A stretch of 64,000 nucleotides of DNA, from assembly GCA_020725105.1 (NCBI GenBank), contig DYFQ01000012.1:1-64000 (forward strand), in the 5' to 3' direction. Both the position numbers and the translations under genes were made by a program. Positions 8,601 to 24,220 of the stretch are shown here, in pieces (the first letter of the stretch is position 1; every line of letters starts with the position of its first letter). This stretch comes from Symbiobacterium thermophilum. Lineage in GTDB: Bacteria; Bacillota; Sulfobacillia; DYFQ01. The notes below the pieces were generated by a model. The model made no database searches. It was not told the origin of the DNA and saw only the letters and a list, made by a program, of their open reading frames with translations.

Positions 8601-9131
8601 TCACTCCTCGGGAGCTACCGCCCGGGCGCAGAGCTCCAGGACCTGCTGATACACCGCCGGTACGTCCAGTTCCGCGGCCCGGGCCTGCAGGTCAGGCAGC
8701 CAGTCCAGGTGCTGGCTGCGGAAAGTGGCCCGCATCTCGGGGGTGCCATGCTCCAGCAGCAGGCCCAACAGGGTCAGTTCCAGGGCCAGGTGGTCCGGAG
8801 TGTGCGCCAGGCCGGGCGGCACCTCCAGCCCCAGGGCGGCGTACAGGCTGCGCAGGTGGGCGGCTGAGTCCCCGCCGAGCCAGCCCTTCTGCCGCGCCAG
8901 CGGCAACTGGCAGTCGGCAAAGGTGGTCCACGGCTTGAACAGCGACTCCACGGGCCGTAGCCGCGGGCCCACCGGGTTGACGAAGGTCTGCCAGTAGGCC
9001 CGGAGGATTTCCTCCGGGGCGACGGCCAGACCGAACTCGGTCACGGCCGCCTGGCAGGTCGCCAGGTCCGGCTCGTACAGGAGGTTGGCCAGCAGGTAGA
9101 GGCGTTCCGCCGCCTGGCTGGCCTTCCTCAC
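8601..9131 (-). CDS. TorD/DmsD-family molybdoenzyme maturation chaperone
   Basis: A 176-residue all-helical cytoplasmic chaperone of the TorD/DmsD/NarJ family, which holds the Tat-exported catalytic subunit until the cofactor is inserted. The family signature is visible as HTPDHLALELTLLGLLLEHG in the middle and FRSQHLDWLPDL towards the end. It is the last gene of the minus-strand operon and overlaps the stop of the molybdoenzyme gene by four bases, so it is translationally coupled to its client. A typical member in length and position. Confidence 0.88.
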   Translation of the reverse strand: MRKASQAAERLYLLANLLYEPDLATCQAAVTEFGLAVAPEEILRAYWQTFVNPVGPRLRPVESLFKPWTTFADCQLPLARQKGWLGGDSAAHLRSLYAALGLEVPPGLAHTPDHLALELTLLGLLLEHGTPEMRATFRSQHLDWLPDLQARAAELDVPAVYQQVLELCARAVAPEE

Positions 9132-11317
9132 GCCCCCGCCGGTTCCACTTCAACCACGACCTCCATCATCATGGCGTGGCCGCTCATGGGCTCGGTCTGG
9201 AAGGGTACCAGGTCGTTCATGGACAGGCCGAAGCCGTTGGCCCGGGTGAGTCCGGGGGAGAAGTTGCCGTACCCGGACGGGATATAAACAGCCTCGGGGT
9301 GGAGGCGCTCCGTCACCTTGACCCGTACTTGCCGGCTGGCCAGGCTGGACCGGACCCACACCAGGTCTCCGTCCTTGATGCCCAGGGCGGCCGCCCGCCC
9401 GGCGTTCATCCAGAGGCGCTCGGCGTTGTGGTCCCTGGTGATCTGCAGGAGGTATGGAATGTTGGCCGTGGACGTGTGCGAGTGATAACCCTGCTTGCCG
9501 TGGATCAGGCGGAAGCTGTTGGGCCGGGCGGGCTCAGGCATGACGCGGGGTGGGATCCAGCCCGGCACGGCGTTGAATCCTGCCTTGGCAAACCGCTCCG
9601 ACACGAACTCCACCTTGCCCGAGGGCGTCTTCAGCTTGGGCATGCCTTCGACAACAGGCGTCTCGACCTGGATGGAGCCCCTGGCTTTCAGTTCCTCCAG
9701 CGTGATGCCCAAGGGCTGCAGGCGGGCGCTGTTCAGCTCGTCCAGGGTGAAGTTGAAGTACTCGCCCACACCCATCCGCCGGGCCAGGGCCACGATGATC
9801 TCGTCGAAGGTGCGCGTGTTCTCCAGCAGTTTCGGCACCACCCGGGTGCGCATGCAGACGGTGCCCTTCCGGCCGGGGATGGCTTCCACCACCTCTTCCC
9901 GCTCCAGGAAGGAAGGCTCCGGCAACACGTAGTGCGCCAGGCGCGCCGTCTCGGTCATGTGCGTATCGATGACCACCAGCAGGTCCAGGGCCCGCATGCC
10001 CGCCATCATGTGCTCGGGATCCGGGAAGTTGCGCACCGGGTTGTGGTGGCGGACGATGCCGGCCCGCAGCTTTCCTTCCCTGGCTTTGCGGGCCGCCACG
10101 TGCGGCAGACCTTGCGCCGTGGGCGCCAGGGGGAACTCCCCGGCGATGCCGGCGCCGTCGCCCCGGGGTAGCGTCGGCTTGGGCGGATCAGGAGCCTTGT
10201 CGGCCGGCAGCTTGCCAAGTTTGGGCGCCCCGTAGAACGTGAGGCCGCCGGGCTTGTTCAGGTTGCCCAGCAGGGCGTTGATGGCGCCCACTGCCCGGGC
10301 GGTCTCCGTGCCGTTGGCGTAGTTGGCACCGAAGCCGCCCTTCCAGCCCGGGTCCACCACGCAGTTGGGCCGGGCGGCTGCCAGCTCCCGAGCCAGGCGG
10401 GCAATGGTCGTGGCCGGGATATCGGTAATCGGCGCGGCCCAGGCCGGCGAGTATTCCCGGACGGCGGCCGCCAGTTCCTCGAAGCCCACGGTGTGCTCGG
10501 CCACAAACCCCGCGTCGTACAGGTTCTCGGCGATCATGACGTTCATCATCGCCAGCAGGAGTGCCAGGTCGGTGCCGGGGCGGATCGGCACCCACTCGGT
10601 GGCAATAGCCGCCGAGGCGTTGTGCCGGGGGTCCACCACTACCAGCTTGGCCCCCTTCTCGATTGCCCGGGCCAGGGCCGCGCTGTAGCCCGTCTGGATC
10701 CCCTCGGCCGGGTTGCGGCCGATCAGCATGATGTACTTGGAGTTGGCCAGATCGGCCCCCGGGGTCGTACCGAACACGGCCTGGTAGGCCAGGATCAAGC
10801 TGGTGTTGCAGGAGGCGTTGTGGGTCATGGTTGTCGGCGCCCCGAGGGCATGCATGAAGCGGGTGCCGTAGAAGGCGCCGGTCGCCCGGGGATTGTGAGC
10901 GAAGAAGACGGCGCCGGGGCCATGGGCGGCCAGCACGGCCTCGAGTTTCGCGGCGATCTCGTCAAGCGCCTGCTCCCAGTCGATGGGCACAAAGTGGTCT
11001 CCCTCGCGCTTCAGCGGCCCTGCCAGGCGGTCCGGGTCGTAAAGCCAGAAGGCGGCGCCGTGCGCCCTGGCGCATAGTTTGCCCTGGCTGCGCCCATGGT
11101 CCGGATGGCCGGTGATCTTCCACAGGCGGCCGTTCTTCACGTGGGCCAGCATGCCGCAGTGGCTGGAGCAGCCGTTGCACAGCGTTGGAACGACCTCGAC
11201 CCGGGCCTGCTCCTGGCTGGCCGCCCAGGTCCGCATGTCCAGGACAGGCGCGGCCGCCAGCAGGGCGGCGGTGGTCAGGCCGGTCTTGAGGAAGCGGCGA
11301 CGGGTGATGCTGCTCAT
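9128..11317 (-). CDS. Tat-exported molybdopterin oxidoreductase catalytic subunit (PsrA/PhsA-like)
   Basis: A 729-residue catalytic subunit of the DMSO reductase superfamily. The N-terminus carries a twin-arginine signal (RRRFLKTG), so it acts outside the membrane. A CxxCxxxC...C motif (CNGCSSHC, then C in GKLCARAH) binds the proximal [4Fe-4S] cluster. The likely molybdenum ligand is Cys in THNASCNTS (about residue 168). The C-terminal dinucleotide-binding domain has MTETARLAHYVLPEPSFLE and NPVRNFPDP. Length and layout resemble polysulfide/thiosulfate reductase A subunits more than arsenate, nitrate or tetrathionate reductases, but the substrate cannot be assigned. It is in an operon with Fe-S, cytochrome b and TorD genes. 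Confidence 0.88.
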   Translation of the reverse strand: MSSITRRRFLKTGLTTAALLAAAPVLDMRTWAASQEQARVEVVPTLCNGCSSHCGMLAHVKNGRLWKITGHPDHGRSQGKLCARAHGAAFWLYDPDRLAGPLKREGDHFVPIDWEQALDEIAAKLEAVLAAHGPGAVFFAHNPRATGAFYGTRFMHALGAPTTMTHNASCNTSLILAYQAVFGTTPGADLANSKYIMLIGRNPAEGIQTGYSAALARAIEKGAKLVVVDPRHNASAAIATEWVPIRPGTDLALLLAMMNVMIAENLYDAGFVAEHTVGFEELAAAVREYSPAWAAPITDIPATTIARLARELAAARPNCVVDPGWKGGFGANYANGTETARAVGAINALLGNLNKPGGLTFYGAPKLGKLPADKAPDPPKPTLPRGDGAGIAGEFPLAPTAQGLPHVAARKAREGKLRAGIVRHHNPVRNFPDPEHMMAGMRALDLLVVIDTHMTETARLAHYVLPEPSFLEREEVVEAIPGRKGTVCMRTRVVPKLLENTRTFDEIIVALARRMGVGEYFNFTLDELNSARLQPLGITLEELKARGSIQVETPVVEGMPKLKTPSGKVEFVSERFAKAGFNAVPGWIPPRVMPEPARPNSFRLIHGKQGYHSHTSTANIPYLLQITRDHNAERLWMNAGRAAALGIKDGDLVWVRSSLASRQVRVKVTERLHPEAVYIPSGYGNFSPGLTRANGFGLSMNDLVPFQTEPMSGHAMMMEVVVEVEPAGA

Positions 11318-11321
11318 GTTG

Positions 11322-11957
11322 TTACCTCCCCACGGCGGTCCGGTCCAGCTCCGCCAGCCACCCGGGATGCTCCAGCTCGGCGTAGCGCCGGCTCACGTAC
11401 CCGCTGAGCATGCCGGAGAGGGCCCCGTAAACGAAGACAAAGTAGATGTGGCCAACGGTAAGGATCAGCAGCGCGTAAGTGGTGATGTTGTGGACCCAGA
11501 GCGCGGCGACGAAGGCACCCGGGCCGACCAGTGACTTGCCCAGCCACATGAGCAGGCCCGAGACGCTGATGGTCACGTAGCCGATGATGACGAGTGCGTG
11601 GTGCAGCTTCTGACCGGCGTTCAGCCGTCCCTGGGGCGGCAGGTCGTGCGCCAGGCCAAGGAAGTAGCGGGGCAGCCGGGCGAGCCAGCGCAGATCGTCC
11701 CTGTCATAGGTGAACGAGTCGCGGACCAGCCGCTTCAGCCCCTGCCAGTCCAGCACGGCGTAAAGTACCGGAATGGCCAGCAGCACCGCGGCGAAGATGC
11801 GGTGCACCTGGCGGCTCAGGCCGCCCGCCGCCAGCTCTGCCGCCGGGCGGAAGACCAGGAACAGACCAGTGATCGCCAGCGCAAAGAAGGAAAGGGCAAG
11901 AAGCCAGTGGATGGAGCGCTGCGCCCCGGAGTAGCGGAAAACCCGGTCGTTCTGCAT
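11322..11957 (-). CDS. Membrane cytochrome b subunit (FdnI/formate dehydrogenase gamma-like)
   Basis: A 211-residue integral membrane diheme cytochrome b of the formate dehydrogenase gamma type, which passes electrons between the quinone pool and the periplasmic-side Fe-S/molybdenum subunits. Four transmembrane segments are apparent. Candidate heme-ligand histidines lie in QRSIHWLLALSF, RQVHRIFA, LWVHNITT and LTVGHIYF, the last being the FdnI signature. Many PsrA/PhsA systems instead use an NrfD-type subunit, so this pairing is notable. It ends four bases before the molybdoenzyme start and follows the Fe-S gene by three bases. Confidence 0.87.
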   Translation of the reverse strand: MQNDRVFRYSGAQRSIHWLLALSFFALAITGLFLVFRPAAELAAGGLSRQVHRIFAAVLLAIPVLYAVLDWQGLKRLVRDSFTYDRDDLRWLARLPRYFLGLAHDLPPQGRLNAGQKLHHALVIIGYVTISVSGLLMWLGKSLVGPGAFVAALWVHNITTYALLILTVGHIYFVFVYGALSGMLSGYVSRRYAELEHPGWLAELDRTAVGR

Positions 11958-11960
11958 GGC

Positions 11961-12701
11961 CTAGCCCTCCTTGTCCGCGTGCTCGGTCAACACCCGCCGG
12001 GCGTTGCGCCGTGCCACTACGAAGGTGAGTGCGGAGATCGCCGCGGCCGCCGCAACGCTCAGCAGCCCGGCCGGCTGCACCACGTCCTTGAGTACGCGGA
12101 TCCCGGCGGGGGTGATCGGGTCAGCCGGCAACCCGTATGCCTCCGGGCTGTCCCGCAGCACCCAGATAAGGTGCGTCCCGCCGACTCCGCCAGGCGAGTA
12201 CACGTTGGCATTGGGCCACCGGCGGCGCAGGGCGGCCACCCGCTGCTCCGCCCTCAGGAGTTGCTGAGCCCGGGGGCCGTAGCTCAGGGCCCCGGCAAGG
12301 CACGTTTGCACGCAGGCCGGGGGCTGCCCGTCGGCGGTCAGGGCCGGGCAGCCAGCGCAGCGCACCGCCTGATCAGCCTTTACGGTGGGAACCGCGAAGG
12401 GGCACACTTCGGCACAGTAGCCGCAGCCGCTGCACCGGGCCGGGTCGAAGTGGGTGAGTCCCTCCTCGCCCTTGTAAACCGCCCCGGTGGGGCAGATGGC
12501 CACGCAGGCGGCATCGGCGCAGTGCTGGCAGGTCAACCGCGCCACGTGGTGGGACACTTCGGGGAAGACGCCGGACTCCCGGAACTGAAACCTTGCATAG
12601 GAGACATCGGGCGGCAGCTGGTTTTGCAGCTGGCAGGCCACACGGCACGCCTGGCATTCAATACACAACGAGGTATCCTGCAGAATAGCTGCTTCCGGCA
12701 T
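11961..12701 (-). CDS. Four-cluster ferredoxin subunit with C-terminal membrane anchor
   Basis: A 246-residue iron-sulfur electron-transfer subunit of the FdnH/DmsB type. Cysteine motifs for four [4Fe-4S] clusters are visible: CIECQACRVACQ, CQHCADAACVAICP, CSGCGYCAEVCPF and CAGCPAL...CVQTC. A single hydrophobic helix near the C-terminus (LLSVAAAAAISALTFVVA) should anchor it, as in FdnH. ATG at 12701 is chosen because GGAGGTG lies ten bases upstream on the minus strand; reading further back enters the promoter and operator. It is the first gene of the operon with cytochrome b, catalytic subunit and TorD. Confidence 0.87.
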   Translation of the reverse strand: MPEAAILQDTSLCIECQACRVACQLQNQLPPDVSYARFQFRESGVFPEVSHHVARLTCQHCADAACVAICPTGAVYKGEEGLTHFDPARCSGCGYCAEVCPFAVPTVKADQAVRCAGCPALTADGQPPACVQTCLAGALSYGPRAQQLLRAEQRVAALRRRWPNANVYSPGGVGGTHLIWVLRDSPEAYGLPADPITPAGIRVLKDVVQPAGLLSVAAAAAISALTFVVARRNARRVLTEHADKEG

Positions 12702-12760
12702 AAGCAAAGAGCACCTCCGCCCATGGTTGCCGGACCCCGAGCTGCTGAGGGGGGCTTCTG

Positions 12761-12784
12761 AGATTGTGAAAGGCGTCACAATCT
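12761..12784. promoter_or_regulatory. Rex-like (or CRP/FNR-like) palindromic operator
   Basis: A perfect inverted repeat, AGATTGTGA (12761-12769) and TCACAATCT (12776-12784), separated by AAGGCG. The core TTGTGAA-N4-GTCACAA differs by one base from the Rex consensus TTGTGAA-N4-TTCACAA, and it also contains the CRP/FNR core TGTGA-N6-TCACA. It lies just downstream of the minus-strand promoter at 12797-12826, a repressor position that favours Rex. It stands 60 bases before the Fe-S subunit start. Confidence 0.65.
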
Positions 12785-13255: not shown

Positions 13256-14050
13256 ATGACCGCGCTGAAGACAGGGCAGAGCAGGGGTGGAGTCCAGGTC
13301 CTCGACCGGGCGCTGGACATCCTGGAGACCTTGGCCGGGGACGACGAGCCGGTACGGCTGGTGGACCTGGCCAGCCGGCTGGGTCTGCACAAGAGCACGG
13401 TACACCGCCTGGTGGCCACGCTGGCCAGGCGAAGGTACGTGGAGCGGGACCGGAACACGGGTCACTATCGCCTGGGCCTGAAAGTGTTCGAACTGGGTTC
13501 CTGGTTCTTCAACCGCATGGAGCTGCGCCAGGAGGCCCGGCCCCACATGCAGGAACTCGTGGACCAAACGCTGGAGACGGCCCACCTGGGAGTGCTCGAC
13601 GAGGGGCAGGTGATCTACATCGAGAAGGTGGAGAGCCCGCAGCGGGTGCGGATGTACTCGGAACTGGGCAAGCGGGCTCCGGCCCACTGTACCGGCATGG
13701 GCAAGGTGCTCCTGGCCCACCTGCCCGAGGAAGAATTGGACGGCCTGATCAGCCTGCGGGGACTGAAGCGCTTTACCAGCAACACCATCACCGATCCGGA
13801 GCAGTTGAAGGACCACCTGGCGCGCGTGCGGGCCCAGGGCTTCGCCATCGACGACACCGAGCACGAGGAGGCCATCAGATGCGTGGCCGCCCCGGTCCGC
13901 AACTACCGGAACGAGGTTGTGGCCGCGCTCAGCATTTCCGGGCCGGCCAGCCGACTCAGCCGCGAACGCCTGGCGCAACTGGCGGACCTGGTCAGGGCGG
14001 CCGCCCTGCGGATCTCCCGGCGGCTGGGCTACAACGGCAACGGCGGTTAG
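13256..14050 (+). CDS. IclR family transcriptional regulator
   Basis: A 264-residue regulator of the IclR family. The N-terminal winged helix-turn-helix is clear (VLDRALDILETLAGDDEPVR, then LGLHKSTVHRLVATLARRRY). The C-terminal effector domain carries the family blocks APAHCTGMGKVLLAHLPEEE and the closing GFAIDDTEHEEAIRCVAAPV. IclR proteins usually act on adjacent catabolic genes and bind small organic acids. Here the next gene, 70 bases on, starts the oxidoreductase operon, and a palindrome at 14073-14089 lies in the gap. Control of the oxidoreductase, and perhaps of the transporter and oxidase genes, is inferred. Confidence 0.92.
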   Translation: MTALKTGQSRGGVQVLDRALDILETLAGDDEPVRLVDLASRLGLHKSTVHRLVATLARRRYVERDRNTGHYRLGLKVFELGSWFFNRMELRQEARPHMQELVDQTLETAHLGVLDEGQVIYIEKVESPQRVRMYSELGKRAPAHCTGMGKVLLAHLPEEELDGLISLRGLKRFTSNTITDPEQLKDHLARVRAQGFAIDDTEHEEAIRCVAAPVRNYRNEVVAALSISGPASRLSRERLAQLADLVRAAALRISRRLGYNGNGG

Positions 14051-14119: not shown

Positions 14120-15637
14120 TTGCGCGTGATCCTCATCGGGCAGGAGGCGTTCGGGCGCGCCTGCCTGGAAGCGCTGCTCGACCAGGGAGAGACGGTCGTA
14201 GGCGTCGTCACCGTGCCCGAGATACCGGGGGCAAAGCCCAATCCCGTGCGGCAACTGGCCGAGGAGAAGGACATCCGGTGTCTCCAGCCCCGACGGTTGA
14301 AAGAGGACCAGGTCTACGAGTGGGTGCGGGCGCTCGAGCCCGACCTGCTGGTGCTGGCCTACGTGACCCAGTTTGTCCCCGGGCGCTTGATCCGGCTGGC
14401 CCGCCGCGGCGGGATCAACTACCACCCCTCGCTGCTGCCCAAGTATCGCGGGGGTACCGCCATCAACTGGGCCATCATCCGCGGCGAGCGGGAGACGGGC
14501 GTCACCATCCACTGGCTTGACGAGGGCGTGGACACCGGGGACATCCTGCTGCAGCGCAAGGTGGAGATCGGCCCGGACGACACGGCGGCCTCGCTCTACT
14601 TCAACAAGCTTTTCCCCCTGGGCGTGGAGATGATCGCCGAGGCGGTCAAGCTCGTCCGGGAAGGCAAGGCCCCCCGGATCAAGCAGGACGACGCGCTGGC
14701 GTCCTTTCAACCAGTCATCAAAGACAAGGACACGGGGGTCGACTGGTTCTGGCCGGCCCGGCGTGTCCACGACCTCGTCCGGGGCGCGGCTCCCCGGCCG
14801 GGCGCGTGGACCACGTGGGCGGGCCGCAGGGTACGGGTGTGGGAGTCGGCTCTCCCGGCGGCCAGGGGCGGAAACGGTCACGAGCCGGGCCGGGTGCTGG
14901 AGGTAGGCGCCGACGGCGCGCTGGTGGCGACCGGCGCCGGGGCCGTCCTCCTCAAGCGGCTGGGCGAGGAGGGTGGTCCCAAACTGGCCGCGGCGGACTT
15001 CGCGGCCCAGGCGGGGCTGGCTCCCGGCCACCGGTTGGGGGCCGAAGGCGAAAGGGGGCTTGAGGAGATGGCGCTGGAGGTCAGGTGGCATGCCCGGGGA
15101 GGCCAGGGGGCGGTGCTCGGCTCCCGGTTTCTGGCCGCGGCGTCGCTGCGCGAGGGCAAGTACTTCCAGGCGTTTCCCCAGTTCGGCACCGAGCGGATGG
15201 GGGCGCCCATCGTGGCGTTCACCAGGGTGGGCCCGTCACCGGTCCACACCCACTGCGCGGTGACGGAACCCGATGCCGTGGTGGTGCTGGACCATACGCT
15301 ACTGGGCCAGGTGGACGTGACGGCCGGCCTCAAGCCGGAGGGCACCGTGGTCGTCAACTTCCCCGGCAGCGTGGAGGAACTGCGGGCAACTATCAGGCTG
15401 CCGTCGGGCGCCAGGGCGGCGGTGGTGGACGCCACGCGTATCTCCCGCGAAGAGATGGGGCGGGCCATTCCCAACACCCCGATGGTGGGGGCCCTGGCCA
15501 GGGTGACCGGGGTGGTGGCCATGGACAACGTGCTGGCCGAGTTCAAGGAGGGCCTTGGCGCGCGCTTCTCGCCCGAGGTGGTTGAGGCAAATCTGCGAGC
15601 CATCAGGCGCGCCTACGAGGAGGTGCAGGTGGGGTGA
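14120..15637 (+). CDS. Formyltransferase / 2-oxoacid:ferredoxin oxidoreductase gamma-subunit fusion
   Basis: A 505-residue protein made of two families normally on separate chains. Residues 1-205 are a formyltransferase domain like Fmt, ArnA and HypX, with the catalytic triad Asn100, His102 (NYHPSLLPKYRGG) and Asp138 (EGVDTGDIL) at the ArnA spacing. Residues 205-310 resemble the Fmt C-terminal domain. Residues 320-505 are a PorG-type gamma subunit with HARGGQGAVLGSRFLA and FPQFGTERMGAPIVAFTRV. No frameshift or internal start separates them. The stop overlaps the porD start (GTGA), and porA and porB follow. The fusion suggests formyl transfer linked to the oxidoreductase reaction; the substrate is not shown by the sequence. 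Confidence 0.9.
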   Translation: MRVILIGQEAFGRACLEALLDQGETVVGVVTVPEIPGAKPNPVRQLAEEKDIRCLQPRRLKEDQVYEWVRALEPDLLVLAYVTQFVPGRLIRLARRGGINYHPSLLPKYRGGTAINWAIIRGERETGVTIHWLDEGVDTGDILLQRKVEIGPDDTAASLYFNKLFPLGVEMIAEAVKLVREGKAPRIKQDDALASFQPVIKDKDTGVDWFWPARRVHDLVRGAAPRPGAWTTWAGRRVRVWESALPAARGGNGHEPGRVLEVGADGALVATGAGAVLLKRLGEEGGPKLAAADFAAQAGLAPGHRLGAEGERGLEEMALEVRWHARGGQGAVLGSRFLAAASLREGKYFQAFPQFGTERMGAPIVAFTRVGPSPVHTHCAVTEPDAVVVLDHTLLGQVDVTAGLKPEGTVVVNFPGSVEELRATIRLPSGARAAVVDATRISREEMGRAIPNTPMVGALARVTGVVAMDNVLAEFKEGLGARFSPEVVEANLRAIRRAYEEVQVG

Positions 15638-15945
15638 CGAGGATCGCCCCGCCCCCCCGGGGACTTCCGGCCTGGCAGGAGATCCCGCTGGGCGGCATCG
15701 TGGCGGGACCTGGAAACTCCCACGAGTACCTGACCGGTAGCTGGCGGACGCGACGGCCCATCCACGACCCCGGAAAGTGCACCAGCTGCATGATCTGCTG
15801 GCTCTTCTGCCCCGACTCCGCCATCCTGGTGGAAGAGGAGCGGGTGGTCGGCATCGATACCGGCCACTGCAAGGGCTGTGGCATCTGCGCCCGCGAGTGC
15901 CCCATCGAGGGCGCCATGGTGATGGCCGAAGGCGGCAGCTACTGA
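15634..15945 (+). CDS. porD: 2-oxoacid:ferredoxin oxidoreductase delta (ferredoxin) subunit
   Basis: A 103-residue two-cluster ferredoxin that carries electrons from the TPP-bearing subunit to free ferredoxin. It has the short N-terminal GGIVAGPGNS segment typical of PorD. Two CxxCxxCxxxCP motifs follow: CTSCMICWLFCPDSA (about residues 49-63) and CKGCGICARECPIEGA (about 78-93). It starts with GTG inside the stop codon of the fusion gene and is followed 28 bases later by porA, with GGAAAGGAGG before the next ATG. Confidence 0.93.
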   Translation: MTRIAPPPRGLPAWQEIPLGGIVAGPGNSHEYLTGSWRTRRPIHDPGKCTSCMICWLFCPDSAILVEEERVVGIDTGHCKGCGICARECPIEGAMVMAEGGSY

Positions 15946-15973
15946 AGGAACGCGGCGGAAAGGAGGAACTGGC

Positions 15974-17161
15974 ATGCCGAGGATAGTGGGACTCACCGGC
16001 GACGGCGCCGCCGCCGAGGCCATGCGGCAGATCGATCCCGACGTGGTGGCCGCCTACCCCATCACGCCCCAGACCGAGATCGTGGAGAGATTCGCCGAGT
16101 TCGTGGCCGAGGGTCTGGTGAACACCGAGTTCGTGGCGGTGGAGTCCGAGCACAGCGCGCTTTCGGCGTGCTGCGGCGCGGCCGCCGCCGGGGCCCGGGC
16201 CATCACCTGCACCTCGTCTCAGGGGCTGGCGCTCATGCACGAGATTCTTTACATCGCGGCGGGCAACCGCCTGCCCATGGTGCTCACCAACGTGAACCGG
16301 ACCCTGTCGGCGCCGCTCAACATCCACTGCGACCATTCCGACAGCATGGGCTCGCGGGACTCGGGCTGGATCCAGCTGTACTGCGAGAACGTGCAGGAGG
16401 TCTACGACACCGTCATCCAGGCCGTGCGCATCGCCGAACACCCCGAGGTCAACCTGCCGGTCATGCTCAACCTGGACGGGTTCGTGATCAGCCACTCCAT
16501 GCAGCCGGTGGAACTGATGGACGATGCGGCGGTCAAGGAGTTCGTCGGGCCCTTCCGGCCGGTGGTGGACCTCTTGGACTTCCAGAACCCCATCGCCCTG
16601 GGCGCCCTGGTGGCGCCGGAGTTCCAGTTCGAGCACAAGTACGCCCAGTGGCGGGCCATGGACTCGGCCCGCGGGGTGATCGGAGAGGTCGGGCGCGAGT
16701 TCGGCGAGGGCACCGGCCGGCACTACGGGCTGCTTGACCCGTACCGGCTGGACGACGCCGCGGTGGTCGTGGTGGTCATGGGCTCCGCCGCCGGGACGAG
16801 CCGGGCGGTGGTGGACGAGTTGCGGTCGAGCGGGGTCAGGGCAGGCCTGCTCAGGGTCAGGGCTTTCCGGCCGTTTCCGGCCGACGAGATCACCGCCGCC
16901 CTCGAGGGCAGGGAGGCAGTGGCCGTCCTGGACCGGGCCGGGACCCAGGGGGGTGAGGGGGGCCCCCTCTTCACCGAGGTCCGGGCGGCCCTCTACACGC
17001 GAGGCGTGTCTCTCCCGGTCCTGGGCTACATCTACGGCCTGGGGGGCCGCGACGTACCGCCCGCCTCGCTGCGGCGGGTGTTCGAGCACGTGCGGCGGGC
17101 GGCGGCGACGGGCAAGGTGGACCGGGCCGTCAACTACCTGGACCTGCGGGGGTGGAAGTGA
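15974..17161 (+). CDS. porA: 2-oxoacid:ferredoxin oxidoreductase alpha subunit (pyruvate synthase type)
   Basis: A 395-residue alpha subunit. Close to the N-terminus is AAYPITPQTEIVERFAEF, the pyruvate-oxidoreductase hallmark, and later APLNIHCDHSDSMGSRDSGW, also typical of PorA. The second half (from about residue 250) holds the domain with VVMGSAAGTSRAVVDELR and the CoA-side region. These motifs resemble pyruvate rather than 2-oxoglutarate or indolepyruvate enzymes, but they do not exclude another small 2-oxoacid such as glyoxylate. The stop overlaps the porB start (TGATG at 17159-17163). Confidence 0.92.
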   Translation: MPRIVGLTGDGAAAEAMRQIDPDVVAAYPITPQTEIVERFAEFVAEGLVNTEFVAVESEHSALSACCGAAAAGARAITCTSSQGLALMHEILYIAAGNRLPMVLTNVNRTLSAPLNIHCDHSDSMGSRDSGWIQLYCENVQEVYDTVIQAVRIAEHPEVNLPVMLNLDGFVISHSMQPVELMDDAAVKEFVGPFRPVVDLLDFQNPIALGALVAPEFQFEHKYAQWRAMDSARGVIGEVGREFGEGTGRHYGLLDPYRLDDAAVVVVVMGSAAGTSRAVVDELRSSGVRAGLLRVRAFRPFPADEITAALEGREAVAVLDRAGTQGGEGGPLFTEVRAALYTRGVSLPVLGYIYGLGGRDVPPASLRRVFEHVRRAAATGKVDRAVNYLDLRGWK

Positions 17162-18096
17162 TGGCGGTGAACCTGAAGAAGCTGGCCGGCCAGGGCTCGC
17201 CGCTGGCGCCGGGCCACCGGTTGTGCAGCGGCTGCGCGGCGCCCACCGTTGCCAAGCAAGCGCTTCTGGCGGCGGGGAAACCGGCCGTGGTCGTCCAGCC
17301 CACCGGTTGCCTGGAAATCTCGTCGGTGGTGTTCCCGTACTCCGCGTGGAGGACGCCCTACTACCACAACGCCTTTGAGAACGCCGCGGCCGTGGCTTCC
17401 GGCATCGAAGCAGCCCTGAAAGCGCGCCGACGGCGCGGCGACCTGCCGGCCGACCTGGACGTGGCCATCATCACCATCGGGGGTGACGGAGGGACTTACG
17501 ACATCGGTTTTCAGGCCCTGTCCGGGGCCCTGGAGCGGGGTCACCGCATACTCCACATCTGCTACGACAACGGGGCCTACATGAACACGGGCATCCAGCG
17601 CTCGGGGGCGACCCCCTTTGGCGCCTGGACCACCACCAGCCACGTGGGGCAGGCCCTCAAGGGCAAGCCGGAACGGCGCAAGGACCTGACGGCCATCGTG
17701 GCCGGCCACAATCCGGCCTACGTGGCCCAGGCCTCGCCCCACAATTTCAGGGACTTCATGCGCAAGGTCAAGAAGGCGGTGGACGCCGACGGTCCGTCCT
17801 TCATCAACGTCATCGCGCCCTGCTGGCGCGGCTGGCGTTTTCCCGAGGAGGAGACCATCGAGGTGGCCCGGCTGGCGGTGGACACCTGCTACTGGCCGCT
17901 GCTGGAGGTCCAGGACGGCAAGTGGACCCTGAACTACGTGCCGCGGAAGAAGAAGCCCCTGGCGGACTGGCTCAGGAAGCAGGGGCGCTTCTCCCACTTC
18001 TTCGAGCCCGGCAACGAGTGGATGCTGGAGCACCTGCAGGCCGAAGTGGACCGGCAGTGGGAGGAACTGCTGACCCGTGCCGGCGTGGAGCGGTGA
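17161..18096 (+). CDS. porB: 2-oxoacid:ferredoxin oxidoreductase beta (TPP-binding) subunit
   Basis: A 311-residue TPP- and Fe-S-binding beta subunit that carries out the decarboxylation. GHRLCSGCAAP and PTGCLEISS supply three of the four cluster cysteines, and IAPCWRGW the fourth. The TPP motif is GGDGGTYDIGFQALSGALER, with ICYDNGAYMNTGIQRSG coordinating the Mg/pyrophosphate. ATG 17161 follows GGGGGTGGAAG and overlaps the porA stop. With the fused gamma subunit, PorD and PorA this completes a four-domain-set enzyme. Confidence 0.93.
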   Translation: MAVNLKKLAGQGSPLAPGHRLCSGCAAPTVAKQALLAAGKPAVVVQPTGCLEISSVVFPYSAWRTPYYHNAFENAAAVASGIEAALKARRRRGDLPADLDVAIITIGGDGGTYDIGFQALSGALERGHRILHICYDNGAYMNTGIQRSGATPFGAWTTTSHVGQALKGKPERRKDLTAIVAGHNPAYVAQASPHNFRDFMRKVKKAVDADGPSFINVIAPCWRGWRFPEEETIEVARLAVDTCYWPLLEVQDGKWTLNYVPRKKKPLADWLRKQGRFSHFFEPGNEWMLEHLQAEVDRQWEELLTRAGVER

Positions 18097-18391: not shown

Positions 18392-19864
18392 GTGAGCCTT
18401 CAGGCTAGAGAGGGCGACGAGGTGCGCATTGGTCACGGTCCACCCTGTACGATTGACGAGTTGCCTGCGCCCCCAGCCTACAACCGGGCCAACCTGATGC
18501 GGCTCGTGGGTCCCGGCGTGATCCTGCTCTCGCTGTCCATCGGCAGCGGCGAGTGGCTCATGGGACCCGCGTCCGCCGTCTCTTACGGGGCAGCCATCAT
18601 GTGGGTCGCCACCATCGGCATCGTCACCCAGGTCTTCTTCAACCTTCAGTGCACTCGCTACACCCTCTACACCGGCGAGCCCATCATGATCGGCTTTACC
18701 CGCCTGTGGCCGGGCCCCAAGCTGTGGACCCCGATGTGGGTGCTCCTCGCGTTCCTGTGCCTGGGCCCAGGCTGGGCGGTGGCGGCCGCGACGGCCGGCG
18801 GCGCCCTGATCCTCGGCCGCATGCCCGAGGCGGCCGACCGGCCCACGGTTCAGCTCATCGGGGGCCTGCTCTTCGCGTCGGTCATCCTCATCCTGATGTT
18901 CGGCGGCAAGATCCAGGCCATGCTGGAGAAGGTCAACAAGGTGCTGGTGGCCTTCATCTTCGCCAGCCTGATCCTGCTGGGGTTCATGGTGGCGTCTCCG
19001 GCCGTCTGGTGGGAGGTCTTCAGCGGCTTCTTCAAGTTTGGCTGGCTGCCGCCGGGCGAGATTGACTGGTTCCTGCTCGCCGGCCTGGCGGGATTCGCCG
19101 CGGCCGGCGGCATCTTCAACATGGCCGTTTCCAACTATTTCCGCGACAAGGGCTACGCCATGGGCGAGCGGGTCGGCTACATCCCCTCCCTCATCGGCGG
19201 CCGCGTTGTCCGGGTCTCACCGGTGGGCAAGGTGTTCCGGATCACCGCGGACAACGTAGAGCACTTCCGCACCTGGTGGAAGTACGTCATCGCCGACCAG
19301 GTCTGGGTCTGGGGCGCCGGGTGCTTCATCGGAATGTTCCTGTGCGTCCTGGTGGCGTATGCCGTCGTCCCCGTGGGCACCAAGGTGGGCGGCTGGGCCG
19401 TCGCCGCCATGCAGGCCGAGGGCGTGGCCAGGCTCATCGGGCCCCTCGGCTGGTACTGGGTGCTGTTCATCGGCTTCTGGGTCCTGTGGGGCACCCAGCT
19501 GTCGGTGTCCGACACCTTCGTCCGCCAGGTGACCGACCTGGTGTGGTATGCCAGCCCGCGGGTGCGCGATAGGTGGGCCAGGGAGGACATCCGCAAGCTC
19601 TACTACAGTATCCTCCTGCTGTTTACCATCTGGGCCTTCTACATGTTCAACAAGGGCGTGCCCCTGTTTCTCGTGGTGCTCGTGGCCAACATGGCCAACG
19701 TCGTCTTCTTCGTGGGCGGTCTTCAACTGCTGTTCATGAACAGGTTGTTGCCGAAGGAGATCAGGGGAGGCCTTCTGCACCAGCTTGGCGTGGTGGGCCT
19801 GGTCGCCTTCTACGGTATCTGGATGACGCTGGGCCTCGGTCGCGGCTTGTTCAAGCTGTGGTAA
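18392..19864 (+). CDS. Nramp-fold membrane transporter lacking the metal-binding motif
   Basis: A 490-residue polytopic membrane protein with about 11-12 transmembrane segments that aligns with the Nramp (SLC11) fold. Canonical Nramp proteins have DPGN in the first helix and a Met-containing metal site in helix 6. Here helix 1 reads GPGVILLSLSIGSGEWLMGP, with GSGEW where DPGN is expected, and helix 6 reads AAGGIFNMAVSNYFRDKG. The transition-metal site is therefore probably missing. It lies between the oxidoreductase operon and the 2-hydroxyacid oxidase, so it may carry a small organic acid or another solute; this is inference. GTG 18392 follows AAGGAGGT by 11 bases. Confidence 0.75.
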   Translation: MSLQAREGDEVRIGHGPPCTIDELPAPPAYNRANLMRLVGPGVILLSLSIGSGEWLMGPASAVSYGAAIMWVATIGIVTQVFFNLQCTRYTLYTGEPIMIGFTRLWPGPKLWTPMWVLLAFLCLGPGWAVAAATAGGALILGRMPEAADRPTVQLIGGLLFASVILILMFGGKIQAMLEKVNKVLVAFIFASLILLGFMVASPAVWWEVFSGFFKFGWLPPGEIDWFLLAGLAGFAAAGGIFNMAVSNYFRDKGYAMGERVGYIPSLIGGRVVRVSPVGKVFRITADNVEHFRTWWKYVIADQVWVWGAGCFIGMFLCVLVAYAVVPVGTKVGGWAVAAMQAEGVARLIGPLGWYWVLFIGFWVLWGTQLSVSDTFVRQVTDLVWYASPRVRDRWAREDIRKLYYSILLLFTIWAFYMFNKGVPLFLVVLVANMANVVFFVGGLQLLFMNRLLPKEIRGGLLHQLGVVGLVAFYGIWMTLGLGRGLFKLW

Positions 19865-20027: not shown

Positions 20028-22790
20028 ATGAAAGGTCGGCCGCTGGTCAGGGCGTTGGAGAAACTGGCGGGCCCCGGGAACGTGCTTTCCTCGCCGGTCA
20101 GCCTGGCCACCTATGGCTACGACGCCACGCTGCTGGAAGGACGGGCCGACGCGGTGGTCTTTCCCACCAGCACCGAGCAGGTGTCCGCCTTGCTCGCCTT
20201 CTGCCACCGGCACCGCGTTTCGGTGGTCCCCCGGGGCCACGGCACCAACCTGAGCGGCGGTTCGGTTCCCCAGGGCGGGGTGGTGATGGCCCTCACCCGC
20301 ATGAACCGCGTTCTCTCGGTGGATGCCCCCAACCGCCTGGCCGTCGTCCAGTGCGGCGTCATCAACCTGGACCTGCAGAAGGCGGCGGAGAGGGCGGGGT
20401 TGATGTACGCCCCCGACCCGGCGAGCCAGAAGGTGTGCTCCCTGGGGGGTAACGTGGCCGAGGGCGCCGGCGGCATGCGGGGCCTGAAGTACGGGGTGAC
20501 CAAGGATCACGTGATCGGGCTGAAGTTCGTTCTGGCGGACGGGGAGGTGTGCCAGGCCGGCGGAGGACTGCAGCCCGTGGCGCCGGTTCCCGACTGGACC
20601 GGGCTGCTGGTTGGCTCCGAGGGCACCCTCGGCGTGGTCACCGAGATCACCGTCCGGCTGATTCCCAGACCGCCGGCGGTCAAGACAATGCTGGCCGTGT
20701 TTGACCGCCTGGAGGACGCGACCGCCACCGTGTCGGCCATCGTGGCCCGGGGCATCGTGCCCACCACCCTGGAACTCATGGACCGCCCGGTCGTCGAGGC
20801 GGTGGAGGCCTACGTCCACGTGGGCCTGCCCACCGACGCCGAGGTGGTTCTGCTCATCGAGGTGGACGGGCTCGAGGCGGGTCTGGACCGCCAGGCCGAG
20901 GTGGTGCAGGACGTGTGCCGCGGGCAGGGTGCCCGCGAGGTGCGGCTGGCGCGGTCCGCCGCCGAGCGGGACCGGCTGTGGCTCGGCCGCCGCACCGCCA
21001 TCGGAGCCATTGCCCGCCTGGCTCCCTGCTACGATCTGGAGGACGTGACCGTACCGCGCAACAGGCTTACCGACATGGCCCGAGTGGTGAGGGAACTGTC
21101 GCAGAAGTACGACCTGACCATCGGGATTCTGGCCCACGCCGGCGACGGCAACCTTCACCCCCTGGTGCTGTTCGACGACCGCGACGCCGACGAGGTGAAC
21201 CGGATGATGGGCGCCCGGCGGGAGCTATTCCGCCGCGCCCTTGACCTGGGCGGTACGCTCACCGGGGAGCACGGGATCGGCCTTTTGAAGAAAGAGTTCA
21301 TGCCCTGGCTCTTCTCGCCGCGGGAACTGCGAACCATGGACCACGTGAAGGCTGCCTTCGATCCGGCGGGAGTGCTGAACCCCGGGAAGGTGCTCGGAGA
21401 GGGGTCTGCACCGAAACAACCTGAGCGGTCCCCGGACGCCGCGGCGCGGGATCGCCTGGTGTCGCGGCTGGAAGGGTTGCTTGGCCCCGCCGCCGTGGCG
21501 GCCGGGGACCAGCTTGACGGCGCTCCCGGACGGGTGCCCGACGTCTGGGCGGCACCGGCGGACGAACCGCAGCTCAGGGAGCTTCTGGGCTGGGCCACCC
21601 GGGAGCGGGTGCCGGTGTACCCCCGCGGCGGCGGTACCCGCTGGGCGGAGGCGTTCCGGCCGTTCAGGGGCGGCGTCGGACTGGACCTGCGGCGGCTGGA
21701 TCGCATGGAGGACCTGGACGCCGACAACCTCACCGTGGTGGCGGGGGCCGGGATGACCCACGAGACCCTTCAGCGGGCGCTGGCTGCGCACCGGCTCTTT
21801 TGGCCCTCGGAGACGGCCTGGCCCCAACGCTCGACCCTGGGTGGCGAGGTGGCCACCGACGCGTCGGGGCCGCGCAGGTACGGCTGGGGATCGGTGCGCT
21901 CCCACCTCCTGGGCTGCCGGGTCGTGTTTCCCGACGGGTCAGGCGGACTCTTCGGCGGCAAGCAGGTGAAGAACGTCTCCGGCTACGACGTTTCCCGGTT
22001 TCTCTGCGGCTCGTGGGGCTCACTGGGCGTCATCACCCAGGTAATCCTGAAGGTGAGGCCGCGCCCCGAGCGGTCACTGGTCAGGGTCTACGAGGGACCT
22101 GCCCGCGGCGTGCTGCGGGCGGCGGAAGAGGTAAGGCTGGGTCTGTTCGGCGCCGTGGCCATCGAGGTCCTGCTGGGCCAGGCTGTGGGCTGGTTCCACG
22201 GCCGGGCGTCGGGTCACCTTCCGTTCGACCAGGGCGTGTTGCTGGTGGGGCTGGAGGGCGCCGAGGAGGCGGTCGCCTGGCAGACGGCGCGGGCGGACAA
22301 GGTGGCGGCGGGGCAGGGTCTGACCCTCCGGCCCCAGGGCCCGGAGGCTCAGGGGGTCTGGAGGGCCCTCCGGGCCCTGCCGGACCTGGCCCGCCGGTCG
22401 GGCCTGGCCGTCTGGAACCTGGCGGTCCTGCCGGCTGACCTGGAGGGCTTGCTGGCCAGCCTGGCCGAGCCCGGCGCCGCCGCAGCCGGTGGCGCGCCCG
22501 GCGGCGCTGTGGTCGGTGTGGCGGCGCACGCCGGCAACGGTCACGCTCGCCTGTTCGTGACACCGGAGAATGGCGGGCCGCCGGAGGGCGGCCAGCTTGC
22601 CGAGGTCGGCGCCCGGGTCAGGACCAGGGGCGGCTGCCTGGCGCCCGAGGACGCCGTCCTGGCCGACAGCCCCTTTCGGGTACTGCCCGCCACGGGGTCG
22701 TTGGGTCCGGTATGGCAACGGCTCAAGAACGTGCTGGATCCCGCCGGCATCATGGGCCCCGCGGGACGGATAGGGGACAGGGCGGGATGA
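20028..22790 (+). CDS. GlcD-GlcE fusion, FAD-linked 2-hydroxyacid (glycolate/D-lactate) dehydrogenase
   Basis: A 920-residue fusion of the two FAD-binding subunits of glycolate oxidase. Residues 1-455 are GlcD: VVPRGHGTNLSGGSVPQGG and LGGNVAEGAGGMRGLKYGVT bind FAD, and the C-terminal cap holds HAGDGNLHPLVLFD, GGTLTGEHGIGLLKK and FDPAGVLNPGK. Residues 470-920 are GlcE-like: VPVYPRGGGTRW, STLGGEVATDASGPRRYGWG, NVSGYDVSRFLCGSWGSLG and a final LDPAGIMGP. ATG 20028 follows GGAAGGG. The stop overlaps the start of the glcF homologue (ATGA). The enzyme should oxidise a 2-hydroxyacid to a 2-oxoacid; glycolate and D-lactate are both possible. Confidence 0.88.
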   Translation: MKGRPLVRALEKLAGPGNVLSSPVSLATYGYDATLLEGRADAVVFPTSTEQVSALLAFCHRHRVSVVPRGHGTNLSGGSVPQGGVVMALTRMNRVLSVDAPNRLAVVQCGVINLDLQKAAERAGLMYAPDPASQKVCSLGGNVAEGAGGMRGLKYGVTKDHVIGLKFVLADGEVCQAGGGLQPVAPVPDWTGLLVGSEGTLGVVTEITVRLIPRPPAVKTMLAVFDRLEDATATVSAIVARGIVPTTLELMDRPVVEAVEAYVHVGLPTDAEVVLLIEVDGLEAGLDRQAEVVQDVCRGQGAREVRLARSAAERDRLWLGRRTAIGAIARLAPCYDLEDVTVPRNRLTDMARVVRELSQKYDLTIGILAHAGDGNLHPLVLFDDRDADEVNRMMGARRELFRRALDLGGTLTGEHGIGLLKKEFMPWLFSPRELRTMDHVKAAFDPAGVLNPGKVLGEGSAPKQPERSPDAAARDRLVSRLEGLLGPAAVAAGDQLDGAPGRVPDVWAAPADEPQLRELLGWATRERVPVYPRGGGTRWAEAFRPFRGGVGLDLRRLDRMEDLDADNLTVVAGAGMTHETLQRALAAHRLFWPSETAWPQRSTLGGEVATDASGPRRYGWGSVRSHLLGCRVVFPDGSGGLFGGKQVKNVSGYDVSRFLCGSWGSLGVITQVILKVRPRPERSLVRVYEGPARGVLRAAEEVRLGLFGAVAIEVLLGQAVGWFHGRASGHLPFDQGVLLVGLEGAEEAVAWQTARADKVAAGQGLTLRPQGPEAQGVWRALRALPDLARRSGLAVWNLAVLPADLEGLLASLAEPGAAAAGGAPGGAVVGVAAHAGNGHARLFVTPENGGPPEGGQLAEVGARVRTRGGCLAPEDAVLADSPFRVLPATGSLGPVWQRLKNVLDPAGIMGPAGRIGDRAG

Positions 22791-24220
22791 AGGGCCTGTC
22801 TGACGTCCTCGAAGAGATCGTCAGGTGCAACAAGTGCGGGTTCTGCCAGGAGGTCTGCCCCACCTACAAGGTGACCGGCCGCGAGTTTGACGCGGCCCGG
22901 GGCCGGAACCGGCTCTTGCGGCTGGTGGTGGACGGGCGCATGAGCCTGACCGCCAACCCCGAACTGGCAACCCATCTCTATTCCTGCCTGCTCTGCGGGG
23001 CCTGCGCCGCGGTCTGCCCGCCCGGCATTCCCACCCACCGCCTGGTGGAGGCTGCCAGGGCCGAGCTCACCCGGCGGGAGGGGCTGTCGCTGCTGAAGCG
23101 GATCGCGCTGCGCGGTGTGCTGCGGAGCCCGCGACGGGTCGCCGTCCCCGCCCGGCTGCTCCGGTTCTACCAGCGGTCCGGGCTGCGGTGGGTGGCCCGT
23201 CACACCGGGCTCCCGCGGCTGATAGGCTCCCTGGGGCAGCTTGAGGGGCTGGTGCCGAGCCTGCCGGCGGCCTCGCTGAGGGCGAGGTTACGGGCGCGCC
23301 CAGGGGGAGCCCCGGGACCGGGCCTGGACTACGCCAGCCCGCCGGAGGCTCTTGACCGGCCCCGGCGCGCCCGCGTCGCCTACTTCCTCGGTTGTGTGAC
23401 CGACAACCTTTTCCCGCCCGTCGGCGAGGCCGTGGTGGCGGTCCTCGAGCGCAACGGGTATGAGGTCGTGGTCCCGGCCAACATGTGCTGCGGGGTGGCC
23501 CAGCGGGCCTACGGGGACCACGCCTCCGCCGCCGAGCTGGCCCGGCAGAACCTGGCCCTTCTGGCGGCCAGCGGGGCGGAATTTGTGGTGTCTGACTGCG
23601 CCACGTGCGCCCATACCCTCAAGGAGTACCCCGAACTGTTGAGGGACGATCCGGACTCCGGCCAGGCGGCCACAAGAGTTGCCACGAAGGTGCGGGAGGC
23701 CAGCCAGTTGCTGGCCGACGAAGGGTTTGAGGCGCCCGAGGGAGGGGTCGACGCGACCGTTACCTATCACGACCCCTGCCATCTGAGCCGGGGCCTGGGA
23801 GTCCGCGCCCAGCCGCGCGCCGTGCTCAAGAGCATCCCCGGTCTCAAGCTGGAGGAACTGCCCGAGGCCGACTGGTGCTGCGGCGGAGCGGGTTCCTACA
23901 ACCTGACCAACCGCCGGCTGTCGGGCGGTATCCTCGACCGCAAGGTGGAGAACTTCCGCAAGACCGGAGCCACCCTGATGGCCGCCGCGTGTCCAGCCTG
24001 CCTGCTGCAACTGGGATTCGGCTTACGGCAGGCCGGTGTGGAGGGCCGGGTGGTCCACCCGGTCCAGGTGCTCTACCGTGCGTACAGCTCGCGACGCGGC
24101 TCCAGCTGTGGTGACGCTGTGGCAGCCAGGGGCTTGGGAATCGCTGCCGGAACCTCGTGGCGAGCAACCGGGAGACGACATGGCGGACATATCTCGGCCC
24201 GAGAGGACCGAAGGCGCTAG
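22787..24220 (+). CDS. GlcF-like iron-sulfur subunit of 2-hydroxyacid oxidase
   Basis: A 477-residue Fe-S subunit that takes electrons from the GlcDE flavoprotein. Two [4Fe-4S] motifs at the N-terminus, CNKCGFCQEVCPTYK (about residues 14-28) and CLLCGACAAVCPPG (about 69-82), are followed by two CCG domains: ANMCCGVAQ with DCATCAH, and YHDPCHLSRG with ADWCCGGAG and ACPACLLQ. ATG 22787 overlaps the stop of the preceding gene. The last 40 residues after YRAYSSRR are low-complexity and may be a run-on. It ends in CTAG, which also provides the stop of the convergent 72-residue gene. Confidence 0.88.
   Translation: MKGLSDVLEEIVRCNKCGFCQEVCPTYKVTGREFDAARGRNRLLRLVVDGRMSLTANPELATHLYSCLLCGACAAVCPPGIPTHRLVEAARAELTRREGLSLLKRIALRGVLRSPRRVAVPARLLRFYQRSGLRWVARHTGLPRLIGSLGQLEGLVPSLPAASLRARLRARPGGAPGPGLDYASPPEALDRPRRARVAYFLGCVTDNLFPPVGEAVVAVLERNGYEVVVPANMCCGVAQRAYGDHASAAELARQNLALLAASGAEFVVSDCATCAHTLKEYPELLRDDPDSGQAATRVATKVREASQLLADEGFEAPEGGVDATVTYHDPCHLSRGLGVRAQPRAVLKSIPGLKLEELPEADWCCGGAGSYNLTNRRLSGGILDRKVENFRKTGATLMAAACPACLLQLGFGLRQAGVEGRVVHPVQVLYRAYSSRRGSSCGDAVAARGLGIAAGTSWRATGRRHGGHISAREDRRR

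Follow-up and report, generated by a model that had tools for sequence, protein, structure and literature searches.

Why should a formyltransferase be joined in one protein to the gamma subunit of a 2-oxoacid:ferredoxin oxidoreductase (POR)? The question is raised by positions 14,120 to 18,096 of the window, by which we mean the whole analysed stretch of 64,000 nucleotides from Symbiobacterium thermophilum (assembly GCA_020725105.1, contig DYFQ01000012.1), where a gene encoding such an Fmt-PorG fusion is followed by porD, porA and porB and, further downstream, by genes of glycolate-oxidase type. We put at about even the chances that this is a glycolate-use operon of an anaerobe, in which glycolate is oxidised to glyoxylate, the POR turns glyoxylate into formyl-CoA, CO2 and reduced ferredoxin, and Fmt passes the formyl group on to give 10-formyl-tetrahydrofolate (10-formyl-THF). 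The narrower proposal, a glyoxylate:ferredoxin oxidoreductase dedicated to this substrate and equipped with an Fmt that converts glyoxylate, THF and oxidised ferredoxin into 10-formyl-THF, CO2 and reduced ferredoxin, with formyl-CoA or a formyl-thiamine pyrophosphate (TPP) adduct handed over within one complex, falls in our judgement a little short of even chances. Glyoxylate is the best single account of the locus, with pyruvate or lactate as possible alternatives.

Glyoxylate is supported by the glycolate-oxidase-type genes that share the gene group in the window and in its relatives, by an upstream IclR-type regulator whose best match is BhcR (below cut-off), and by the invariance of the Fmt catalytic residues in 25 of 25 clade members together with the presence of formate-THF ligase (FTHFS) and acetyl-CoA synthase (ACS) in all seven genomes with fmt beside porGDAB. 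In the proposed scheme GlcDE and GlcF would oxidise glycolate to glyoxylate, which PorABDG would decarboxylate and oxidise on TPP, reducing ferredoxin and making a formyl unit. This unit would most likely be formyl-CoA, kept on the gamma subunit where CoA binds. Fmt, fused to gamma here and encoded by a neighbouring gene in relatives, would transfer the formyl group from there to tetrahydrofolate, and the 10-formyl-THF so made could feed the Wood-Ljungdahl pathway at its methyl branch or yield ATP via FTHFS. What we infer is glycolate over D-lactate, glyoxylate as the POR substrate, formyl-CoA as the carrier, and the formyl transfer with its direction. The genes concerned are the following.

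13256..14050, + strand: IclR-family regulator, 264 aa (IclR_C 210.6 bits, Pfam)
14120..15637, + strand: Fmt-PorG fusion, 505 aa (formyltransferase 1-297, linker about 298-317, POR gamma 318-505)
15068..15637, + strand: PorG part of the fusion (POR domain, E 1.2e-38; possible internal start ATG at 15068)
15634..15945, + strand: porD, two-[4Fe-4S] ferredoxin-like delta subunit, 103 aa (Fer4 families; NCBIfam PorD_KorD 95.4 bits, above cut-off)
15974..17161, + strand: porA, alpha subunit, 395 aa (POR_N 260.8 bits, PFOR_II 99.8 bits)
17152..18096, + strand: porB, beta subunit (TPP), 314 aa (TPP_enzyme_C; NCBIfam PorB 358.4 bits, below cut-off 405)
18392..19864, + strand: Nramp-like membrane protein, 490 aa (without a Pfam match; 165 bits to NCBIfam Nramp_1, where the cut-off is 50)
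20028..22790, + strand: GlcD-GlcE fusion, 920 aa, FAD subunits of a glycolate-oxidase type enzyme (TIGR00387 glcD 609.6 bits, cut-off 567.9; GlcE model 178.1 bits, below cut-off 284)
22787..24220, + strand: GlcF-type iron-sulfur subunit (CCG and Fer4_8; LdhH 258.4 bits and GlcF 183.9 bits, cut-off 333, both below cut-off; the start is our choice, the open frame beginning at 22712)
9128-12779, - strand: molybdopterin oxidoreductase with membrane and Fe-S subunit genes, upstream of the operon (top NCBIfam match of the large subunit PhsA, below cut-off)

The Fmt-PorG fusion

The frame at 14120-15637 on the plus strand runs from a TTG start through 505 codons with zero internal stops, and Pfam places Formyl_trans_N at residues 1-160 (1.5e-37), Formyl_trans_C at 200-297 (2.7e-21) and POR at 327-500 (1.2e-38), which confirms the single uninterrupted fmt-porG gene of the original prediction. 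Asn100, His102 and Asp138, which it had also reported in place, are all present in the Fmt part. The sequence GAGGAG lies immediately 5' of ATG 15068 inside the fusion, and a free PorG may possibly be made from this internal start. The overlapping codons claimed for the genes that follow were found between the fusion and porD (4 bases) and between porA and porB (10 bases); porD and porA are 28 bases apart.

In the closest relatives found, G424 and G425 (Fmt 73% and PorG 78-79% identical), fmt and porG are adjacent but separate, and separate genes are also present in G526, G162, G390 and G187. Alignment of the DNA at the junction showed a stop and a spacer in G424 and G425; in the window there is no stop, the frame reads through, and the junction is shorter by 14 bases (compared with G424) or 37 bases (compared with G425). 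On the assembled sequences a single wrong base was therefore rejected as the source of the fusion, since one base-call error would not account for the loss of a stop together with such a shortening. The fused state was found in one genome only, that of the window; it is the gene group that recurs, and the fusion arose within it locally. In a scan of the genome contigs every one of 29 loci matched the gamma part alone and not Fmt, a tblastn search of plasmids gave 15 records of which 0 covered 80% of the query, and among the matches listed from open-licence PMC titles and the starts of abstracts there was neither a glyoxylate:ferredoxin oxidoreductase nor an Fmt-PorG fusion. The look for further fusions and their neighbours that had been suggested at the outset thus brought no more fusions, but a recurrent fmt-por-glc neighbourhood. 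Rarity of the fusion together with loss of the triad from relatives had been named as what would speak against the idea: rare the fusion is, and the relatives keep the residues.

Gene neighbourhood in other genomes

The genomic context was analysed for 25 members of the Fmt clade drawn from sets of 398, 154, 22 and 97 genomes, 20 of them placed in the clade by tree and five by identity (51-54% to the window); in the 398-genome sample, which covers the phylum of the window, three candidates were scored per genome and misses are accordingly weak. Besides the family of the window, three more families of this phylum have the order fmt-porG-porD-porA-porB together with glycolate-oxidase-type genes, and given this recurrence in a total of four families the arrangement is not due to chance. 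Six genomes carry fmt, porGDAB and glc genes (the window, G425, G526, G162, G390 and G187; in G526 glcE is not in view), and in G424 the contig ends after porB of an fmt-porGDAB group. In G537 fmt is followed on the same strand, after 47 bases, by a single-chain pyruvate:ferredoxin oxidoreductase (PFOR) of 1192 aa and by glcD-glcE-glcF. The context is unclear in G539, where fmt lies on a 12.7 kb contig, and in G237 fmt stands by itself, glcE being encoded at another place of that genome. The 29 POR-gamma loci of the contig scan served as a control: no clade Fmt gene was found in their examined flanks, some of which were only 3-4 kb, and the tree places the Fmt matches of L046 and L053 outside the operon Fmt clade.

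Within the class of G162 (22 genomes) a glcE-type gene with an E value up to 1e-130 was detected in 12 of 12 genomes with the Fmt clade and in 2 of 10 without it (Fisher p 1.4e-4, with the E limit set post hoc and kinship uncorrected); at the search's own limit of 1e-60 the figures were 12 of 12 and 3 of 10.

Two of these clusters hold additional genes. Directly upstream of fmt in G526 are URO-D-type and B12-binding proteins resembling a corrinoid methyltransferase pair (L089:946-2689), and in G425 a gene of the FMN-dependent dehydrogenase family (2-hydroxyacid oxidase type; L087:5488-6564) is located between porB and an Nramp-like gene.

The formyltransferase

The operon Fmt clade (20 rows) was split from 15 housekeeping and other Fmt rows at 100/100 support, and a loop that carries GRG in most non-clade rows is shortened in the clade, with GRG missing. 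A further fmt in the genome of the window (G000:C68) groups with the housekeeping rows, where its branch is long. By single sequence the closest solved relative is the hydrolase domain of 10-formyl-THF dehydrogenase (FDH; 194 bits). In profile comparisons tRNA Fmt (4iqf) scored 254 bits, FDH (4qpd) 252 and HypX 82, and the model gave Z scores of 35.9 for tRNA Fmt (1fmt), 35.1 for FDH (4qpd), 34.9 for ArnA and 21.9 for HypX. HypX as the nearest relative is not supported, with 82 bits against 252-254. From these comparisons neither acceptor nor donor can be read.

Three known identities were rejected. The Fmt part has the domain composition of a methionyl-tRNA formyltransferase (Formyl_trans_N and Formyl_trans_C with Asn/His/Asp); its score of 183.1 bits is below the NCBIfam equivalog cut-off of 201.5 and the GRG-type loop, which has a tRNA role, is absent. 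10-Formyl-THF dehydrogenase consists of an Fmt-type domain, a linked carrier domain and an aldehyde dehydrogenase domain, and in the fusion Fmt is followed only by POR gamma, with no linked carrier or aldehyde dehydrogenase domain. For a HypX-like origin the profile match is far weaker, and the partner identified by Pfam is POR and not enoyl-CoA hydratase.

The oxidoreductase

The operon encodes a full heterotetrameric set (POR_N, PFOR_II, TPP_enzyme_C, POR and two [4Fe-4S] motifs by Pfam), with NCBIfam PorC_KorC and PorD_KorD both above cut-off. In a tree of 41 of 59 rows retained after our thinning, the operon PorA fell into a nine-row clade (97/97) made up of seven operon PorAs, G351 and G173. 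The second PORs of G000 (the genome of the window, where this second por operon is G000:C64), G424, G425 and G526 sit in another clade. With nearer and more distant rows sorted by identity and not by known function, N106 of PorA, three residues ahead of R109, was present in 7/7 operon rows and 2/2 sisters and in 0/31 nearer and 0/19 more distant rows; T110 in 7/7, 1/2, 1/31 and 2/19, respectively; and Y71 of PorB in 7/7 operon rows, 2/2 sisters, 0/30 nearer and 3/6 distant rows. These differences suggest, as far as sequence can tell, a changed active site, and name no substrate. Among PDB entries, PorA and PorB both come closest to the PFOR of Methanosarcina, and alpha and beta of oxalate oxidoreductase (OOR) are among the nearest solved structures.

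The GGQG loop is retained in the gamma part. The gamma counterpart of PFOR, domain III, is described as binding CoA (PMC8091585), and fusion of Fmt to gamma therefore suggests CoA as the carrier.

The regulator and the remaining genes of the operon

The IclR-type gene ends 69 bases ahead of the fusion. Its match to BhcR is the top one in NCBIfam, with 265.9 bits and a cut-off of 350. Aligned to E. coli IclR from the PDB, the regulator shares four of the five oxygen-binding residues (G160, D212, S239 and S241), A161 being replaced by Met; these positions come from a table in PMC11323563 and were mapped by eye. According to the same source, glyoxylate weakens the binding of BhcR to its promoter, pyruvate or oxalate strengthens it, and IclR reacts to both glyoxylate and pyruvate (PMC11323563). 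With four of five positions kept, glyoxylate and pyruvate are both possible ligands.

Downstream of porB the gaps are 295 bases to the Nramp-like gene, 163 from there to GlcD-GlcE and -4 between GlcD-GlcE and GlcF. The Nramp-like gene probably belongs to the operon; one is found in the glycolate cluster of both the window and G425. Its first helix reads GSGEW where metal-transporting Nramps have DPGN, and this together with its location in a glycolate cluster makes an organic acid or other cargo possible. GlcD and GlcE form a second fusion of the operon, in one 920-aa frame, and are two genes in G425. Judged by NCBIfam, GlcD is above the glycolate-oxidase cut-off, the GlcE and GlcF parts are below theirs, and a GlcE-type part is present.

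Metabolic context

FTHFS was found in 15 of 15 genomes tested and ACS in 11 of 14, among them every one of the seven that carry fmt next to porGDAB. The search for other glyoxylate sinks covered malate synthase, HpcH and Gcl; transamination to glycine, reduction and hydroxyaspartate aldolase were outside it. In G162, G390, G187 and G424 there were zero matches to malate synthase (PF01274) and no full-length HpcH/HpaI (PF03328), which the other 11 of the 15 genomes have; PF03328 gave only matches of 26-33 bits, just above the family cut-off, in 480-504-codon frames of G162, G390 and G187, taken to be pyruvate kinases, and none in G424. The PF01274 match of G526 (21.8 bits) coincides with its HpcH protein. 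None of the 15 genomes reached the Gcl cut-off (TIGR01504, 711), the same four genomes scoring at most 359 bits; relatives of Gcl scored 576-602 bits in five g24 genomes and at most 384 in the rest.

From assumed formation energies we calculated -0.575 V for glyoxylate to formate and CO2, and about -0.44 to -0.46 V for glyoxylate to 10-formyl-THF and CO2. At the latter potential ferredoxin reduction coupled to formyl-THF formation would be near equilibrium, so that the reaction is possible and reversible.

Alternative explanations

A number of observations, those of this and the next paragraph and those cited below for pyruvate and for repair, weigh against a glyoxylate-specific complex. No POR or glc gene was found in the examined flanks, some of them short, of nine of the 25 Fmt-clade members (G307, G622, G623, G624, G625, G613, G138, G334 and G356, from families f127, f77 and f87). 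In six g24 genomes (G371, G098, G212, G261, G308 and G540) fmt lies beside glcDEF without porGDAB. Taken over the 25 contexts, porGDAB accompanies fmt less often than glc genes do, and each association has exceptions. At eight f22 loci (L073-L077, L127, L129 and L130, that is the six glcDEF-only genomes, G539 and G537) kor-type genes lie upstream of fmt on the same strand; they are distant, with 24-31% identity to PorA, PorB or PorG, and may be another partner or mere neighbours. Judged by gene content, f22 is probably Moorellaceae. As to the nine members lacking such neighbours, the gene order around fmt is fixed in f127, where at L079:8200-14227 a UPF0004/radical SAM gene precedes the Fmt-clade gene and an AAA/M41 protease gene and a CinA gene follow it; genes of equal length follow at L176, L177 and L179, where there is no POR or glc gene.

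The AlphaFold model of the fusion (mean pLDDT 91.9, pTM 0.65, residues 310-314 below 50) predicts two well-folded parts in a loose mutual arrangement. Malate synthase is genuine only in G000 among the 15 genomes, with isocitrate lyase alongside. The sink distribution reads as one of alternative glyoxylate sinks, yet HpcH proteins are present in G425, G526 and G000 too. ACS was not found in G537, G351 and G138, the first of these being the genome with fmt, PFOR and glcDEF.

The alternative that survives best, although we regard it as rather unlikely, is ordinary pyruvate use, with the Glc-type enzyme as a dehydrogenase of D-lactate or another 2-hydroxyacid, PorABDG as a pyruvate:ferredoxin oxidoreductase and Fmt in a separate folate job. 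PorA has T31, R109 and I117 as in pyruvate enzymes; Thr31 and Arg109 of POR alpha are the active-site residues for the 2-oxoacid carboxylate, and with these residues retained nothing excludes pyruvate. The kinship of PorA and PorB to Methanosarcina PFOR points the same way, as does the GlcF part, whose best NCBIfam match is LdhH, and so do G351 and G173, which keep the same POR subtype including N106 while their examined flanks hold neither fmt nor a glc gene. In these two genomes the POR subtype (L081 and L082) adjoins a kor-type operon. Pyruvate, too, is bound by the pockets of IclR-type regulators (PMC11323563). Such a role leaves unexplained both the fusion and the recurrent fmt-por-glc group; GlcD scores above the glycolate-oxidase cut-off with a GlcE-type part beside it, and another POR is already present in four of the genomes.

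Repair is the next explanation and an unlikely one: a POR or PFOR working mainly on pyruvate would attack glyoxylate as a side reaction, and Fmt would salvage the formyl-CoA by-product to 10-formyl-THF. In its favour, fmt stays with glcDEF in the six g24 genomes, of which five were searched and had no PorA of >50% identity (G540 was not searched), and a PFOR stands in for porGDAB beside fmt in G537. One of the g24 genomes, G261, has a cluster of two subunits of CoA-ligase type, HpcH and malic enzyme that would fit the malyl-CoA pathway, which papers citing the original work report for Moorella HUC22-1 (PMC8092247, PMC6313629). Repair leaves unexplained the diverged POR clade and why the three glyoxylate sinks searched for were not found in G162, G390, G187 and G424.

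That the system runs reductively, making glyoxylate for glycine synthesis from the formyl group of 10-formyl-THF, CO2 and reduced ferredoxin, we hold to be very improbable. POR-type enzymes are reversible, ACS is present and the calculated couple is close to ferredoxin; the operon, however, encodes a glycolate-type enzyme that works oxidatively, its regulator comes from a glyoxylate/pyruvate-responsive family, no aminotransferase was seen among the operon genes examined, and the CO2-fixing direction that the original prediction had left open is a poor fit with a glycolate oxidase in the operon. An oxalate oxidoreductase variant can be dismissed almost entirely: both OOR subunits, alpha and beta, figure among the closest solved structures and T110 is common to OOR and the window, but the important positions R31, D112 and F117 of OOR alpha are T31, S112 and I117 in the window, and a single OOR delta model extends over PorG and PorD, which are two proteins in the window.

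If the glyoxylate proposal is true, the operon would give acetogens and their relatives a way, so far undescribed, to bring glycolate into the methyl branch of Wood-Ljungdahl metabolism, in which the energy of the thioester is kept and C2 acids supply both low-potential electrons and folate one-carbon units; for pathway engineering it would mean a reversible C1/C2 interconversion. Which two activities to assay in combination is indicated by the fusion itself.

Comparison with known systems

The POR part resembles PorABDG, the PFOR of Methanosarcina acetivorans (PDB 9bt4), in its alpha, beta, gamma and delta composition, its TPP and Fe-S domains, T31/R109/I117 and the GGQG loop, and differs from it in the fused Fmt (adjacent in relatives), its own PorA clade, N106, T110 and other changes. 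The oxalate oxidoreductase of Moorella (PDB 5c4i) belongs to the same superfamily, and oxalate oxidoreductase carries out C2 acid chemistry with reduced ferredoxin; the window is without R31, D112 and F117 and its gamma and delta are not fused to each other. The Fmt part shares the whole two-domain fold with the hydrolase domain of FDH (ALDH1L1, 4qpd) and with tRNA Fmt (1fmt, 4iqf), and is set apart by Asn100, where the FDH sequence has Ile, and from the tRNA-type rows by the lack of the GRG loop.

At the level of pathways, the known routes of glyoxylate are malyl-CoA, glycerate (Gcl) and hydroxyaspartate. The malyl-CoA pathway of Moorella HUC22-1 is similar in being an anaerobic use of glycolate and glyoxylate, and differs in that neither malate synthase nor full-length HpcH was found in G162, G390, G187 and G424. 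The beta-hydroxyaspartate cycle with BhcR (PMC11323563) likewise places an IclR-type regulator beside a glyoxylate-use cluster, whereas the enzymes of the window are different and the BhcR cut-off is not reached. For the Fmt domain of HypX/HoxX, formyl transfer from 10-formyl-THF to CoA has been proposed but not directly shown (PMC6802093); the partner domain in HypX is of enoyl-CoA hydratase type, in contrast to the POR gamma of the window. Set beside these systems the operon is a variant built from known families.

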